From: a virus
Direction: 5' to 3' (one strand)
DNA: 34,601 bases
Virus record (IMG/VR): IMGVR_UViG_3300043437_000179
Location: 1 to 34,601 of that record
Under the pieces are notes generated by a model. It did not search any database, was not told the DNA's origin, and worked only from the letters and a program-made list of their open reading frames with translations. This document shows, piece after piece, positions 1 through 34,601 of the stretch (position 1 is the stretch's first letter; the number at the start of each line of letters is the position of its first letter). A program made the position numbers and the translations under genes.

Positions 1-167
1 CACCTTCAGATTATCTTTCAATCATTACCGAGGGAGTTAACGCAGGAGTGCCGCCACACGTAACTTATCAGAACCTTTACAACTATGCTTATTCGATCAA
101 CTCGTCTAACAGCAAGGTTGTTAAGATGCTTGACTTGATCTTTGCAGCCGATAAGATTCTGACATTG
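1..167. repeat. Terminal redundancy, left copy
   Basis: Bases 1-167 match 34435-34601 at all but four positions (14, 17, 20 and 41). Each difference is at a third codon position of the portal frame and is silent (Tyr, Leu, Ser, Asn). The repeat lies inside a coding sequence rather than near terminase, which suggests an overlap of a circular or circularly permuted genome assembled from slightly different individuals, not a physical terminal repeat. Confidence 0.95.
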
Positions 168-428
168 TCGAGTGCTGATATCATTGCTCGTATTGCAAAC
201 GGTACGATTGAAAAGTATCAGGACATCTTACACACATCAGCACCTCAACTTATTGCGATGCTCGATGGTACGTTTGAACCGTCCGAACTTTATCCTACGT
301 TCTTCGATCAGCCTATTGCGGATCAGGTGGCACAACTTGAACAAGCTGCAAAAGACGAACTGATTGAAGTTGGAGATCCTATTGCTGAACAGATACGATT
401 ACTTACTAATCCTCCAATCGGGGCTTAA
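1..428 (+). CDS. Portal protein, C-terminal part (gene wraps around from 32967)
   Basis: This is the last part of the portal gene whose first 545 codons lie at 32967-34601. The reading frame enters at base 3, has no start of its own, and ends with TAA at 426-428. Bases 1-167 duplicate 34435-34601, so only codons from 168 onward are new, giving a joined protein of about 631 aa. A GTG at 48 could be read as a start, but the same codons sit in the middle of the frame at the other end, so I reject it. The tail of the protein is acidic and hydrophilic. The stop overlaps the next ATG as TAATG, so the minor head protein is probably translationally coupled. The portal forms the ring at the capsid vertex through which DNA passes. 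Confidence 0.8.
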   Translation, partial: PSDYLSIITEGVNAGVPPHVTYQNLYNYAYSINSSNSKVVKMLDLIFAADKILTLSSADIIARIANGTIEKYQDILHTSAPQLIAMLDGTFEPSELYPTFFDQPIADQVAQLEQAAKDELIEVGDPIAEQIRLLTNPPIGA

Positions 429-3481: not shown

Positions 3482-3583
3482 CATCGCACAAGATTACTCG
3501 TTGGGATTGCCGCCCATTAAGGCATCGTTGGCGTTGTGAACAGCCAATTCAATCGCTTCACTTCATCTCAACTATTTTTAATC

Positions 3584-14382: not shown

Positions 14383-14925
14383 ATGGAAACACTAACCCAC
14401 TACAAGAAACTACGCAACCCTGACTACATGGGAGCGTACTGTATGCCAACTGACGGAGGCGAAATTATCCTAACGATTAAGTCCGTGCGTGTCGAATCCG
14501 TTCCAAATCCTGACGGTAAGAAATCAGATTGCACCGTTGTTCACTGGATGGAACAGAATTGGAAACCAATGATTCTGAACGCAACCAACAGTAAGACTAT
14601 TTCGAAACTTGCAAAGTCTCCATTTATCGAAAAGTGGCAAGGCTTACAAGTTCAAATCTACACCGCTAAGATTAAAGCTTTCGGAGAAGAACACGATGCT
14701 TTACGTATCAGAACATTCGCACCGAAACCAACCGCAGCACCTACGCCCGATCCGGTAATTGACGAACTGGCAATCAAGGAATCGATCGATAAGTTAAACA
14801 CCTGCACTACCGAGGAAGGATTAACCGCAATGTTTAGATCATTCACGCCACAGATGCAGAAGATCGATTCTATTATCAAAGAAGCGAAGATGGTTAAAGA
14901 CATGATTAAAGCGACTGAACAATGA
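14383..14925 (+). CDS. Recombination-linked phage protein
   Basis: The 180-aa protein has two parts. Residues 1-115 are beta-rich, with M-I-L-N-A-T-N-S-K-T-I-S-K-L-A-K-S-P-F-I and W-Q-G-L-Q-V-Q-I-Y. After a Pro/Ala/Thr linker (about 115-125) comes a helical tail. The N-A-T-N-S-K stretch followed by F-I-x-x-W is a recurring feature of proteins found next to YqaJ exonucleases in Bacteroidota phages, from memory. It overlaps the exonuclease by ATGA. The natural guess is a partner in DNA recombination or protection, perhaps binding DNA, but no catalytic motif is visible. Confidence 0.6.
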   Translation: METLTHYKKLRNPDYMGAYCMPTDGGEIILTIKSVRVESVPNPDGKKSDCTVVHWMEQNWKPMILNATNSKTISKLAKSPFIEKWQGLQVQIYTAKIKAFGEEHDALRIRTFAPKPTAAPTPDPVIDELAIKESIDKLNTCTTEEGLTAMFRSFTPQMQKIDSIIKEAKMVKDMIKATEQ

Positions 14926-15536
14926 TACTGCACAACATCGAACAAAGAACAGGCGAATGGTATCAGATACGAGTAGGCAAAGTTACCGGATCAGAATTCA
15001 AAAAAGTAATGTCAAAGAATTGGATGGACTATGCCGATAAGATCGCAGCCGAACAATTGACCGGATCAAGTCTTGACGATGAAGACGGATTCGTAAGTTA
15101 CGACATGCAACGTGGAATTGATTTAGAGCCATTAGCCGCAGCAGAATATCAACAGCGCAACAATATTCAACTTGATCTATACGGCTTTATTCAGTCATCT
15201 AAATTTGAGCATTTAGGACTTAGTCCCGATGCAGTTGGTTTGGAAGTTTCTTTCGGTGTTGAGATCAAAGCACCAAACGTAGCAACTCACATCCGATACA
15301 TTCGCCACGACAAGATACCTGCAAACTATTACGATCAGATTCTATGTTATTTCGTAGTGTGCGATTCCATCCGGCACGTTGACTTTGTTTCTTACTGCCC
15401 CGATCTTGAACAATACCCGTACTGGCAGAAACGAATTACACGGGATGAAATGCAAACCGAAATCGAACAAGCAGAACAATCACTTACCAAATTCTTCAGA
15501 CAAGTAGAAACCGTTAAAACCCTTATCACACAATGA
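14922..15536 (+). CDS. YqaJ-type phage exonuclease
   Basis: The 204-aa protein matches the YqaJ/lambda-exonuclease fold: R-T-G-E-W-Y-Q-I-R-V-G near 9-19, T-G-S (22-24), then the PD-(D/E)xK residues E69 (G-I-D-L-E), D103 (S-P-D), E114 and K116 (V-E-I-K-A-P), and the helix Y136-Y-x-Q139. These enzymes digest one strand 5' to 3' to prepare DNA ends for annealing. A partner annealase (RecT, Erf or Redbeta) was not recognised, so the protein before it (14383) or after it (15533) may help. ATGA overlap on both sides. Confidence 0.85.
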   Translation: MILHNIEQRTGEWYQIRVGKVTGSEFKKVMSKNWMDYADKIAAEQLTGSSLDDEDGFVSYDMQRGIDLEPLAAAEYQQRNNIQLDLYGFIQSSKFEHLGLSPDAVGLEVSFGVEIKAPNVATHIRYIRHDKIPANYYDQILCYFVVCDSIRHVDFVSYCPDLEQYPYWQKRITRDEMQTEIEQAEQSLTKFFRQVETVKTLITQ

Positions 15537-16975: not shown

Positions 16976-16983
16976 TATCTTTA
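16976..16983 (+). promoter_or_regulatory. -7-like box TATCTTTA before RNA candidate
   Basis: One base from TAnnTTTG (A replaces G). Its expected start, about 7 bases downstream, falls at the first base of the structured RNA. No good -33 TTTG is seen, so strength is uncertain. Confidence 0.4.
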
Positions 16984-16988
16984 CAGCA

Positions 16989-17106
16989 CGTTCAGAGGTG
17001 AGAGCCTGAACCCGCAAGACATTAACCGCCCAATGGCGGCTACGTCAGAAAGTAGTTAACGCTACTATCTGCTCTCACCGTAGCCTTCATTGGGCTTTTG
17101 CGTTTT
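16989..17106 (+). ncRNA. Structured RNA with kissing/pseudoknot pairing and terminator
   Basis: Hairpin 1 is GTTCAG (16990-16995) with CTGAAC (17006-17011). Its loop carries GGTGAGAGC (16997-17005), complementary to GCTCTCACC (17071-17079). The main stem pairs GCCCAATG (17028-17035) with CATTGGGC (17088-17095) and, across a 2x2 internal loop, GGCTACG (17038-17044) with CGTAGCC (17079-17085). Base 17079 is shared, so the long-range pairing is 8 bp if both form. Inside sits hairpin CAGA-A-AGTAG / CTACT-A-TCTG (17046-17071). The loop-to-strand pairing crosses the main stem, a pseudoknot. TTTTGCGTTTT follows. It may act as a free RNA or as a leader for 17110. Confidence 0.6.
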
Positions 17107-17109
17107 AAT

Positions 17110-17304
17110 ATGAACAATACAGATCGAATAATTATAAAGCAATATGATTTAGAAATGGGAAGGCTTCACGGAGCGATCACACCAAATATGAATCGTGAAA
17201 CATTAATTTCTTCTATTGTAATTTTACAGAAGTTTTTGTTGATGCCCGATGATGTAAAACTTGAAAAGGCAAAAAAGTATTTTAACGATCCAAAGCCTTT
17301 TTAA
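17110..17304 (+). CDS. Small protein, unknown
   Basis: An upstream TTG at 17098 lies in the terminator T-tract, so ATG 17110 is taken (64 aa). The protein is helical with L-E-M-G-R-L-H-G-A-I-T and A-K-K-Y-F-N-D-P-K. It starts 3 bases after the RNA candidate, so its expression should depend on read-through of that hairpin. Function unknown. Confidence 0.5.
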   Translation: MNNTDRIIIKQYDLEMGRLHGAITPNMNRETLISSIVILQKFLLMPDDVKLEKAKKYFNDPKPF

Positions 17305-17305
17305 A

Positions 17306-17986
17306 ATGTTTAACTACTTCAATTATTTCTATCATTGGATAGAAGAAAATCCCGATAAGGTCGATCCGTATATTACTGCAGTTTATTTTGCATTGCTTAA
17401 CCGTGCAAATAAGTCAGGATGGAAAGATAAGTTTGCAATCATTCTTGTTGACCTGCAGGAAACTTGCGGAATCAATTCACGAACTACAATGTTAAAAACA
17501 CTTGCTCGGTTAGAAGAATTTGGATTTCTGCAGACTGTTTCAACCACAACAAATCAATACAAAAATAGAGTAATATGCCTTCCATTAAATGAAAAGCACT
17601 TGGATAGCACGTGGAAAGCAGATGAAAAGCACGTGGATATCACTTGGACACATAATAAGACTATTAAGATAGATAAGACTATAAAGACTATAAAGACCAA
17701 AGGGGCGGATTTAAGTAAGGTCTATTCTGAAAACGAATTAGTCAATAAGCACTTCATCGATTTTCTGCAGAACAGAATCGAAATAAAGAAACCCGCTACT
17801 CAACGTGCTGCAGATTTATTAGTTACCGAAATGCGTAAACTTTACAAAACACCCGATGAAGCAATACAAGGAATTAATCAATCAATAATGAAAGGATGGA
17901 CTGGATTATTTCCAGTAGGTTCGCAAAATAACAAACCTCAACAACCTGCCCAATTCTCACGGGCATCACTAAACCACTTCGTATGA
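17306..17986 (+). CDS. Replication initiator / winged-helix protein
   Basis: The start at ATG 17306 (226 aa) is favoured over an in-frame start at 17261 that overlaps the previous gene. The N-terminal region (1-100) has Y-F-A-L-L-N-R-A-N-K...C-G-I-N-S-R-T-T-M-L-K-T-L-A-R-L-E-E-F-G-F-L, which reads as a winged helix-turn-helix. A Lys/Thr-rich linker (about 110-135) is followed by a helical part with a DnaD-like feel (E-A-I-Q-G-I-N-Q-S-I-M-K-G-W-T-G-L). This is the usual plan of phage replication initiators that bind the origin and load DnaB. The helicase gene follows with an ATGA overlap. Confidence 0.7.
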   Translation: MFNYFNYFYHWIEENPDKVDPYITAVYFALLNRANKSGWKDKFAIILVDLQETCGINSRTTMLKTLARLEEFGFLQTVSTTTNQYKNRVICLPLNEKHLDSTWKADEKHVDITWTHNKTIKIDKTIKTIKTKGADLSKVYSENELVNKHFIDFLQNRIEIKKPATQRAADLLVTEMRKLYKTPDEAIQGINQSIMKGWTGLFPVGSQNNKPQQPAQFSRASLNHFV

Positions 17987-19371
17987 AACAAGCAATCGAC
18001 ATAGAACAACGAGTTATATCACTCCTGCTCACTACTGAAAATCCTGAACATGATTTCTTTGCCTACATCAAGAAAGATTATTTCACAACTGAGCAATACA
18101 TCAAAGCTTACGAATTAATCGAACTTCTCAGAGCCGATAAGAAGCCAGTAAACATAACTTCATTCACGCACCTAAATCGGGAAAAGAAATTACTATCACA
18201 TCCCGACCATATTAAGATCATCACATCATCTGACACGCTATCATACGGTGAACCATTTATGTATTACGTCCACGAACTTCGTGAGGCATACATCAAACGT
18301 GAAATAAGCAGAATCGTTACAGAAGAATCAGTCGGACTATACGATCGAATCGATGCTTCACAATCAGCTGCCACCATCGTCAAGAAACTGACCGAACTTA
18401 TGGACACTGGTACAACCTCGGATAACATCATTACCATTTCAGAACTTACCCGAAATGAACGTGAAGCATACTTCAGACGGCAATCACTTAATCAAGCAGG
18501 CAAGACTTCAGGGATCGAAACGGGACTATCAGCACTCAATAAGTTCACCGGTGGTTGGCAATCTGAATTTATAATCTTAGCAGGTCGACCATCGATGGGT
18601 AAGACAGCACTTGCATTATTTCACGCAATGCGATCTGAAGAACCTGGCATTTACATTAATCTCGAAATGGGACAATCTCAACTTTCGCAAAGGTTGATTC
18701 TCCAATACTCGGACGGAATGATTAATTCAGCACGACTTCGAGATGGTAACTTAACCCAACCCGAACTACATGCTTTCGAATCCACCATTTCAAAAATAGA
18801 AAACAAGCCGTTTACAATTTACGATAAGCCTCGATGCGGTGTTCACGAAGCGATTAGGGTAATTCGTAGGGAAGCAAGAAAAGGACGGTGCAAATGGGTT
18901 GTTATAGATTACCTGCAACTAATGACAATCGAAGGTTACAGAGGCGGAAATCGTGAAGCTGAAGTAGCAGAAATTAGTAAGACACTTAAAGCAGCACAGA
19001 AAGAACTTGGAATCCCGATAATAGCCCTTGCACAGTTGAGCCGTCAAGTAGAGCAACGAGCCGATAAGAAACCGATGCTATCCGATCTTCGTGAATCGGG
19101 ATCATTAGAGCAAGATGCAGATACTGTATGCTTCGTTTACCGTCCTGCTTACTACGACTTGAAAAAAGAAGATGGAGGCGAATACACTAACGAGATATTC
19201 TACCTTTTTGAAAAGCATCGACAAGGTGCAACCGGAACTGTTGAGTTTAGACATAACCAATACATGACCGATTTCTTTGATGCAAAACAAGAACCTTTCA
19301 ACTCTTACCTACCCGTAGCAGAATCCACATCACTAAACCACATAAGACAAAATGAAGATCTACCATTCTAA
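17983..19371 (+). CDS. dnaB: Replicative DNA helicase
   Basis: The 462-aa protein has the DnaB plan: an N-terminal helical domain (about 1-105), a linker, and a RecA-type domain from about 180. The Walker A is G201-R-P-S-M-G206-K207-T208. The Walker B is V-V-I-D309-Y-L-Q-L-M, followed by A-Q-L-S-R-Q-V-E-Q-R and D-L-R-E-S-G-S-L-E-Q-D-A-D. DnaB hexamers unwind DNA at the replication fork. Length matches the family. ATGA overlap with the initiator. It ends 20 nt inside the next small ORF. Confidence 0.95.
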   Translation: MKQAIDIEQRVISLLLTTENPEHDFFAYIKKDYFTTEQYIKAYELIELLRADKKPVNITSFTHLNREKKLLSHPDHIKIITSSDTLSYGEPFMYYVHELREAYIKREISRIVTEESVGLYDRIDASQSAATIVKKLTELMDTGTTSDNIITISELTRNEREAYFRRQSLNQAGKTSGIETGLSALNKFTGGWQSEFIILAGRPSMGKTALALFHAMRSEEPGIYINLEMGQSQLSQRLILQYSDGMINSARLRDGNLTQPELHAFESTISKIENKPFTIYDKPRCGVHEAIRVIRREARKGRCKWVVIDYLQLMTIEGYRGGNREAEVAEISKTLKAAQKELGIPIIALAQLSRQVEQRADKKPMLSDLRESGSLEQDADTVCFVYRPAYYDLKKEDGGEYTNEIFYLFEKHRQGATGTVEFRHNQYMTDFFDAKQEPFNSYLPVAESTSLNHIRQNEDLPF

Positions 19372-32966: not shown

Positions 32967-34601
32967 ATGATACTTACACCACTTCAAATCGATTTAATCG
33001 TTAAGAACTTTGTTGAGGTTCATAAAGGGCGAATGAATGCCGATAAGTCAAGGCATCAATACTTACCTGAATACTGGACGGGTTACAACTATTGTCTTCA
33101 ACAATACGATGCGATTGAACCGCACGTAAGGCAAGATGTATTTCCTGCTAAGTTATTCGAGCAACGTGCCCCAAACCAATCTGAACTACAAGCAAAGTAC
33201 ATCAGAGCAAATTATAAAGGAACGACTACACCAGTATTTGAAGACTTTGTAAATACTGTTGGTCGTGCTTTTGCCGAACAGAATTGGTCGTTAAAGGTCA
33301 ATCAAGAACTTGACAGTCGTTACGTTGGCGAATCGTTTAAGAAGTATGCAGGCGAACAAATTCCAATCTTTGGTTCTTTGGAGTTGTGGGCTAAGTCTAT
33401 GCTGCCAACATTGAAGCTTAAGGATGCAAACGGGGTAATTGCTATTCGTCCGATGTCGCTTGATTACATGCGTTCAGAAGAGAACGAGGTTGTAACAGAT
33501 GCAAACGGTAACCCCGTGCTATCTAACGAACTTATTAAGCCTATTCCGACTTATCATTCAGTTCATAGAATCGTAGGTCAGCAGCTTGGTGAATGGTACT
33601 TAATAATCACTGATGAAAGATCAGAAGTTTTAGTAGGTAATAAAAAGGTTCGTGAAGGAATTGTTCTTGAACTTTACGATGGGCAGTCAATCTATCGCAT
33701 TGAGCAAACGGGCAAAAAGGAAAGTTATAAGTTTGCAGATCCGATTATATTCTATCAGCACGAACTTGGCTATGTTCCGGTTATTAAACTCATGGGCATT
33801 CCGATCTTAGCAGCCGGCACACTTGTTTATAATTCTCCGTTTGTTACGGCTGTTGGATTGCTTGACTTGGTGCTTTTGGATCAGTCTTATTTGCAGATAA
33901 GTAAGGCAACATCAGCATTCCCGTTTATGGTTGCTATCGGTGACATTTGCGACTTTGAGCAAAATGGTAATAAATGCAACGATGGTCAGATTTGGACGGG
34001 AGAAAGAACAACGACTTGTCCTGCTTGTTCGGGTGCAGGTATTCGTTCTCGATTTAGTCCAACTGGTCAACTACTTATCAAGCCTAAGACTTCACTTGCC
34101 GATGGTGACAGTGGGTTATCCGGTAAATACTTGGAGTTCGTTTCTCCTTCAATGGAAACGCTTGAATTCTTAAGGCGTGAAATAAACTTCCAAACAGATA
34201 AGGCTCGTTCAATCCTACACCTCAACACTTCAGATCAGGCGGCAAATTCAGGCGAAGCAAAAACTGCAACGGAAAGCATCAGTCGTAACCGTGCAACTCA
34301 CGCATTCATTAAGCCTATATCAGATCAGATGTTTGCGATTGTGGAGTTCACATACAACACGATCGGACAAATGCGTTACGGTGAATATTACGGTGGAATT
34401 GAATTGCAGAAACCAACGACATTCGATATCGCAACACCTTCAGATTACCTATCTATCATTACCGAGGGAGTTAATGCAGGAGTGCCGCCACACGTAACTT
34501 ATCAGAACCTTTACAACTATGCTTATTCGATCAACTCGTCTAACAGCAAGGTTGTTAAGATGCTTGACTTGATCTTTGCAGCCGATAAGATTCTGACATT
34601 G
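32967..34601 (+). CDS. Portal protein, N-terminal 545 residues (continues at 1-428)
   Basis: The frame is open from ATG 32967 to the end of the window and continues, via the terminal repeat, to the stop at 428 (about 631 aa). The N-terminal half has W-T-G-Y-N-Y and R-A-N-Y. The middle contains Y-N-S-P-F (about 287-291). A Cys cluster occurs at C328, C337, C351 and C354, the last pair in C-P-A-C-S-G-A-G, a DnaJ-like C-x2-C-x-G-x-G motif. Residues 420-470 (R-S-I-L-H-L-N...S-G-E-A-K-T-A-T-E-S) match phage portal style. Position before the MuF gene and after a terminase/tail module supports the call. A dodecameric ring at the capsid vertex is expected. Confidence 0.75.
   Translation, partial: MILTPLQIDLIVKNFVEVHKGRMNADKSRHQYLPEYWTGYNYCLQQYDAIEPHVRQDVFPAKLFEQRAPNQSELQAKYIRANYKGTTTPVFEDFVNTVGRAFAEQNWSLKVNQELDSRYVGESFKKYAGEQIPIFGSLELWAKSMLPTLKLKDANGVIAIRPMSLDYMRSEENEVVTDANGNPVLSNELIKPIPTYHSVHRIVGQQLGEWYLIITDERSEVLVGNKKVREGIVLELYDGQSIYRIEQTGKKESYKFADPIIFYQHELGYVPVIKLMGIPILAAGTLVYNSPFVTAVGLLDLVLLDQSYLQISKATSAFPFMVAIGDICDFEQNGNKCNDGQIWTGERTTTCPACSGAGIRSRFSPTGQLLIKPKTSLADGDSGLSGKYLEFVSPSMETLEFLRREINFQTDKARSILHLNTSDQAANSGEAKTATESISRNRATHAFIKPISDQMFAIVEFTYNTIGQMRYGEYYGGIELQKPTTFDIATPSDYLSIITEGVNAGVPPHVTYQNLYNYAYSINSSNSKVVKMLDLIFAADKILTL
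34435..34601. repeat. Terminal redundancy, right copy
   Basis: Matches 1-167 with differences only at 34448, 34451, 34454 and 34475. In the portal frame all are silent. The last 126 bases are identical to bases 42-167. Confidence 0.95.

Follow-up and report, generated by a model that had tools for sequence, protein, structure and literature searches.

A pseudoknotted phage RNA, conserved by covariation ahead of replication genes, as a candidate terminator-ended leader

A 34,601-nt stretch of viral DNA, hereafter referred to as the window, carries a compact pseudoknotted RNA directly ahead of a replication operon, and 115 distinct relatives of this RNA were found in IMG/VR phage contigs. We read these sequences as a new phage RNA family, namely a leader (attenuator) that precedes the replication operon and ends in a terminator, and would put the probability of this reading at about one half. 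Apparently undescribed and not in Rfam, the family is widespread among uncultivated phages with Bacteroidota-type promoters, a large group in which it occupies the position from which replication is switched on. Should it indeed be an attenuator, the RNA would represent a defined switch for phage replication; in addition, its promoter-leader-ATG cassette could serve as a portable part for Bacteroidota genetics.

The promoter box, RNA elements, operon genes, and iterons described below lie on the plus strand. The stems claimed in a preliminary description of this DNA were all recovered where it had placed them. Hairpin 1 (P1, 16990-17011) is made of 6 bp (16990-16995/17006-17011) closing a 10-nt loop, in which GGTGAGAGC (16997-17005) forms the 5′ strand of a pseudoknot. 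This segment is the perfect complement of the 3′ strand, GCTCTCACC (17071-17079), which is supported by covariation in both alignments described below, and their pairing crosses the main stem, just as had been proposed. The main stem, P2 (17028-17095), comes in two parts (17028-17036/17087-17095 and 17038-17043/17080-17085), while the inner hairpin P3 (17046-17071; 17046-17056/17061-17071), supported by folding energy and covariation, contains the single A-A mismatch noted earlier, at 17050/17067. The P3 pair 17046-17071 and the last pseudoknot pair compete with each other.

The minimum free energy of region 16980-17120 is −48.7 kcal/mol, compared to −30.4 ± 3.8 kcal/mol for dinucleotide shuffles (z = −4.8), none of which (0/200) reached as low a value. 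A chance origin of the fold is excluded because it is conserved in relatives, confirming the region as an RNA gene or leader. From promoter to terminator-like end, the RNA would measure 110 to 120 nt. We also observed that in the window a linker at 17013-17019 (CGCAAGA) pairs with 17096-17102 (TTTTGCG), so that the terminator stem reaches into the T-tract; relatives have an A-rich linker, which could pair with their T-tract as well.

The relatives came from several searches. Probing viral contigs for the DnaB helicase returned 58 phage loci, and blastn with the RNA as query revealed copies of 70-80% identity at several of them. A first search pattern, comprising hairpin 1 and the first P2 bases, retrieved 101 viral contigs, from which 68 distinct sequences were aligned (alignment A2); since members had to contain the loop complement, the perfect pseudoknot of A2 is partly the result of selection. 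A second set of 47 distinct sequences consisted of further members found at the helicase loci once a covariance model (R1) had been built without the pseudoknot, together with matches to a P2/P3-region pattern. This set involved no selection on hairpin 1 or on variable loop bases, the P2/P3 pattern having fixed the ACC end of the 3′ strand, and was combined with the window into alignment A4 (48 sequences). Chosen without the loop complement, it removes the selection bias of the first set. R1 found the RNA in 27 of 28 phage records, and in 26 of the 27 RNA-bearing records the model search returned a single copy. Minus-strand matches of R1 were dismissed as the palindrome of the same element. 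Coverage of the viral collection came from two protein queries and three DNA patterns, which may miss members that have diverged further.

Both alignments show strong covariation. Paired cells amount to 96.6% in A2, with two-sided changes in 20 pairs, and to 96.0% in A4, with two-sided changes in 25 of 35 pairs; in neither case was the covariation score reached by any of 500 shuffles. Sliding the A4 partners by 1 to 3 columns lowered pairing to 28-45%. Looking at individual stems in A4, two-sided changes affect five of the six P1 pairs (100% of cells paired), 9 of the 14 P2 pairs (99.4% of cells paired), and five of the six counted P3 pairs. Pseudoknot pairs 2 to 9 are intact in 48/48 A4 sequences, six of these pairs having two-sided changes, and the 8-bp pseudoknot core is intact in all 47 members picked without hairpin 1 or the variable loop. 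The family can do without the first pseudoknot pair (16997-17079), which is broken in 27 of the 48 sequences. The preliminary description had named compensation among related phages as its test, and every stem passed it in both alignments; its overall picture of a structured RNA with a crossing pseudoknot near replication genes is thus supported by covariation. RNA lengths of members differ by numbers not divisible by three, indicating that the stretch is non-coding.

These data also bear on a reading at the DNA level, according to which the stretch is part of an origin or a recombination joint and its fold incidental. Genes on both flanks have been exchanged around the RNA and iterons lie nearby, as such an element might lead one to expect. 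However, compensation within a crossing pseudoknot, a promoter at one end, and a T-tract at the other are strand-specific features of an RNA; covariation has already largely refuted the DNA-level reading, which we regard as barely credible.

What surrounds the fold is just as regular. The −7-like box that had been noticed at the expected distance upstream is TATCTTTA (16976-16983), a match to the Bacteroidota sigma-A −7 box TAnnTTTG, which is the −7 consensus of sigma-ABfr in Bacteroides (PMC7366714). Since the Flavobacterium box occupies −12 to −5 (PMC9723704), the +1 position is expected near 16988, the fifth base after the box end, which by this analogy probably puts the 5′ end of the transcript 1-2 nt ahead of hairpin 1. 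Of 116 members, 114 have 3-6 nt between the end of a TAnnTTTG-like box and hairpin 1. Going by promoter type only, the hosts would be Bacteroidota-like.

At the other end, the T-tract reported after the fold is present as a T-rich tail, TTTTGCGTTTT (17096-17106), which follows the GGGC stem and was also picked up as a terminator-like site in a terminator scan. The P2 base reads GGG(C/T), and the next 11 nt contain at least 7 T, in 114/116 members; that is, a GC-rich stem plus T-run in the layout of an intrinsic terminator. An ATG opening an ORF lies 9-25 nt past the stem in all 114 members with enough sequence.

The ORFs opened by this ATG fall into about 22 unrelated families. The largest cluster (62/114 members) consists of replication initiators, comprising DUF6291 and O-like replication proteins, and others include HNH nucleases, DNA methylases, and a helicase. 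The upstream genes are similarly diverse, forming more than 20 clusters and usually ending 10-30 nt before the RNA. As a separate observation, five loci (L065, L091, L067, L072, and L141) carry insertions of HNH nuclease, DNA methylase, and NUMOD-like genes precisely at the junction of RNA and initiator gene, and the distance from stem to ATG is the usual one in every case. Judged by its sequence surroundings, the element is a portable promoter-leader unit heading the replication module. The short, fixed distance to the ATG leaves no room for a separate promoter, suggesting that the downstream gene is transcribed through the RNA; close packing of phage genes alone could also give such short distances.

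Among the three options offered earlier, a free regulatory RNA, an attenuator controlling replication genes, and an origin-linked RNA, the attenuator fares best given the fixed spacing of promoter, RNA, terminator, and ATG. The same cassette may be read differently, and its U-rich tract, found directly before the ATG in all members, together with the lack of any Shine-Dalgarno sequence apparent by eye, would suit a translational leader, in which structure and U-rich tract present the ATG to ribosomes and P2 does not terminate. We consider this improbable, since a GC-rich stem base with an immediate T-run is the classical layout of a terminator and the downstream genes are unrelated.

A constitutive terminator would instead release a free trans-acting small RNA, with host or phage mRNAs or a protein as its targets, and the replication operon would be read mainly through upstream-started transcripts leaking past the RNA. 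The promoter and terminator do bound a unit of 110-120 nt, the fold is very stable, and one locus (L060) carries the RNA with 136 identical bases despite different flanking DNA and a helicase that is only 64% identical. Yet such an RNA would not call for an ATG at a constant 9-25 nt, and in 11 near-complete phage genomes neither a second RNA copy nor a second match or trans target of the loop was found above chance. We therefore hold a purely trans-acting RNA to be a serious but doubtful candidate.

An RNA that begins at the +1 of a long operon, is independent of the gene that follows, and has a pseudoknotted fold also recalls cis-acting processive antitermination RNAs such as put of phage HK022 and the Bacillus EAR element, where the leader binds the polymerase and lets it pass later terminators. 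Here, however, the RNA ends in a terminator-like stem and T-tract of its own, which to our knowledge neither put nor EAR possesses, making this reading even less probable than a translational leader.

An attenuator calls for an alternative structure, and a candidate exists in the form of a local hairpin, H2, into which the 5′ strand of P2 folds on itself. In the window, H2 (17026-17039) is closed by CCGCC/GGCGG, where most members have GCCC/GGGC and others GTCGCC/GGTGAC. H2 and P2 are mutually exclusive; as a putative antiterminator, H2 would hide the 5′ strand of the terminator. It folds in all 28 distinct A2 arms, with a mean z of −2.2 against mononucleotide shuffles, and its mean energy in A2 lies below that of column-shuffled arms (1/300 reach the value); in A4, where the search pattern had fixed GGGCTGCGAGG in most members, it does not. 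Thus, H2 is present in nearly all members, with conservation above column composition being clear in A2 only. In eight sequences, and leaving out the pseudoknot term, folds with a free 3′ strand came out 11-20 kcal/mol worse than the P2 fold, from which we would expect termination to be the default and readthrough to be kinetic or assisted.

Following the attenuator reading, the TAnnTTTG promoter would set the transcription start no more than about 2 nt from hairpin 1, and the emerging RNA would fold in order: P1, then local H2, then P3 and the pseudoknot. Once the last strand emerges, it would displace H2 and complete P2, creating an intrinsic terminator 9-25 nt before the first ATG. Termination would yield a short stable RNA of about 110-120 nt, and readthrough the mRNA for initiator and helicase, with the polymerase being carried across an iteron origin. 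The pseudoknot would be the part that sets the decision between the two outcomes; the signal it responds to would most likely be base pairing with a further molecule of the short RNA, such that accumulated leader turns down its own operon. We infer that P2 terminates transcription in the cell, that H2 is an antiterminator, and which signal the pseudoknot reads.

The operon that would thus be controlled opens with a 64-aa ORF without an assigned family (17110-17304), which starts at the ATG discussed above. It is followed by a lambda O-like replication initiator (17306-17986; PHROG 678, E = 3.6e-13) and a DnaB-like replicative helicase (17983-19371; PF03796, E = 5e-77). The RNA had been placed between a DnaA-like gene and this initiator/helicase operon; the operon stands, and the DnaA-like label found no Pfam or PHROGs match. 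All 35 loci whose DnaB is at least 50% identical and which have at least 1 kb of upstream sequence carry the RNA, and none of the five loci with a DnaB of 36% identity or less does.

A repeat search identified about five 11-bp iterons within the initiator gene (17593-17648), followed by AT-rich 9-bp repeats at 17657-17697, an arrangement that suggests a probable lambda-type origin inside this gene. By analogy with lambda, transcription from the RNA promoter would cross the origin. Tandem repeats with units of 7-25 bp, mostly 11 bp, occur downstream of the RNA in 97/110 relatives and upstream in 27/96; these iteron arrays are similarly arranged, with different unit sequences. As for an origin-linked RNA, the proximity to replication genes holds, and the RNA itself is not the iteron origin, because the iterons are found farther along the operon, within the initiator gene. 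Immediately ahead of the replication module, we noted a gene for a YqaJ/RecE-like recombination exonuclease (14922-15536), preceded by a PHROG 21613 gene (the pair spanning 14383-15536). A left-end protein (PSDYLSIITEG..., window positions 1-180) repeats a right-end protein (about 34420-34601), so the record is probably a circular, complete genome.

The RNA had not been matched to a named class, and Rfam 15 gave no match above the gathering threshold in the window or in 10 relatives. Sub-threshold matches in the window, including a weak one to U6 (E = 0.25), were at chance level, and ARAGORN detected neither tRNA nor tmRNA. The C4 antisense RNA of phages P1 and P7, an Rfam class, is likewise a structured phage RNA that pairs short complementary segments, regulating an antirepressor rather than replication; it did not match the leader RNA in the Rfam scans. 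IsrK/SeqA RNA had no match in the window or the 10 relatives either, on the assumption that Rfam includes this family.

With the RNA as query, no match was obtained among cultured phages and plasmids. GTDB genomes yielded 44 pattern matches, of which only one (L223) had a loop complement, without the rest of the fold; presence of the RNA in these genomes was rejected at the level of the pattern search. The model, under strict filters, found none in 395 Bacteroidota genomes, a weak negative given that the set had no positive control. The open literature, in partial coverage, held no description of the RNA.

A precedent for the proposed logic is IsrK of the Salmonella prophage Gifsy-1, where one promoter was shown experimentally to give rise to both a terminated small RNA and a readthrough mRNA (PMC4825925). 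Like the leader RNA, IsrK has its own promoter and transcription either stops at a terminator or reads into the mRNA directly downstream; its short form targets the long one in trans. Unlike the leader RNA, which precedes initiator and helicase genes, IsrK belongs to a temperate phage and has an anti-repressor and AntQ under its control (PMC4825925). The arrangement of the cassette is compatible with such a short/readthrough pair.

Another parallel is the satellite phage P4, as described in PMC4825925: its CI RNA pairs with segments of the leader and thereby stops the replication operon, whose untranslated leader (seqA/seqC) contains complementary segments and controls the replication genes by premature termination. 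Similarly, the leader RNA has a loop complementary to another segment in what would be a replication-operon leader, a likeness in how it may work and not one of membership. In contrast, P4 CI RNA arises by processing of the leader and has its role in lysogenic immunity, whereas here the complementary segments form a predicted intramolecular pseudoknot across an intrinsic terminator. A temperate element with RNA-kept lysogenic immunity was not indicated, as a search confined to tyrosine integrases (PF00589) detected none in 27 records, the controls being found in 14/14 cases; classical lysogenic immunity is therefore unlikely. As IsrK and P4 CI RNA do, the short product of termination may in addition act in trans.

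Plasmids offer further parallels. In the pT181 attenuator (Novick 1989, cited in PMC10724649; PMC3753616), hairpins compete and a terminator can form within a leader ahead of the replication-initiator gene, much as proposed for the leader RNA. Unlike the latter, for which no antisense transcript is established, nor an antisense promoter by a scan confined to sigma-70 patterns, which do not cover Bacteroidota promoters, it is set by a separate antisense RNA. The repZ leader of IncI-alpha plasmid ColIb-P9 has a pseudoknot upstream of a replication-initiator gene (Asano and Mizobuchi 1998, cited in PMC10724649), and compatibility groups of the related IncK plasmids are set by changes in the loop. 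The IncI-alpha pseudoknot is a translation switch and the antisense RNA there is a separate one, in contrast to the built-in terminator proposed here.

The pseudoknot also changes remarkably fast. Its 8-nt loop core occurs in 21 versions, of which four are common, and close relatives differ chiefly in the pseudoknot, with both strands staying complementary. Four pseudoknot changes are accompanied by one body change between L117 and L165, by two between L063 and L065, and by three between L143 and L170. Pseudoknot alleles thus swap between near-identical bodies in a rapid, concerted manner. A link between allele and downstream gene was looked for and not seen: L117 and L165 share the gene and not the allele, and L117 and L119 share the RNA and not the gene.

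Incompatibility loops of plasmid antisense RNAs, as in IncK1/IncK2, also change fast and in concert (PMC10724649), a resemblance that we take as a lead only. We tentatively suggest, while thinking it unlikely, that the pseudoknot is a self-recognition code, whereby the terminated leader of a resident phage would pair with the nascent leader of a same-allele newcomer and stop its replication operon. If true, this would constitute RNA-based replication exclusion in apparently non-lysogenic phages, and rare alleles would escape exclusion, which would explain concerted allele swaps on an unchanged RNA body. The fast, concerted change makes it a testable idea that phages, in the manner of plasmids with their incompatibility RNAs, control or exclude relatives through RNA pairing codes.

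Lastly, one contig (G418) contains two RNA variants, L255 and L256, at positions 3497 and 38213. Their upstream genes are near-identical, and their RNA bodies, alleles, and initiator genes differ. We rejected a true second copy, for the spacing of 34.7 kb is approximately one genome length and the contig is longer than one genome; L255 and L256 probably stem from two variant strains joined in a single contig and illustrate how the RNA-initiator module is exchanged.
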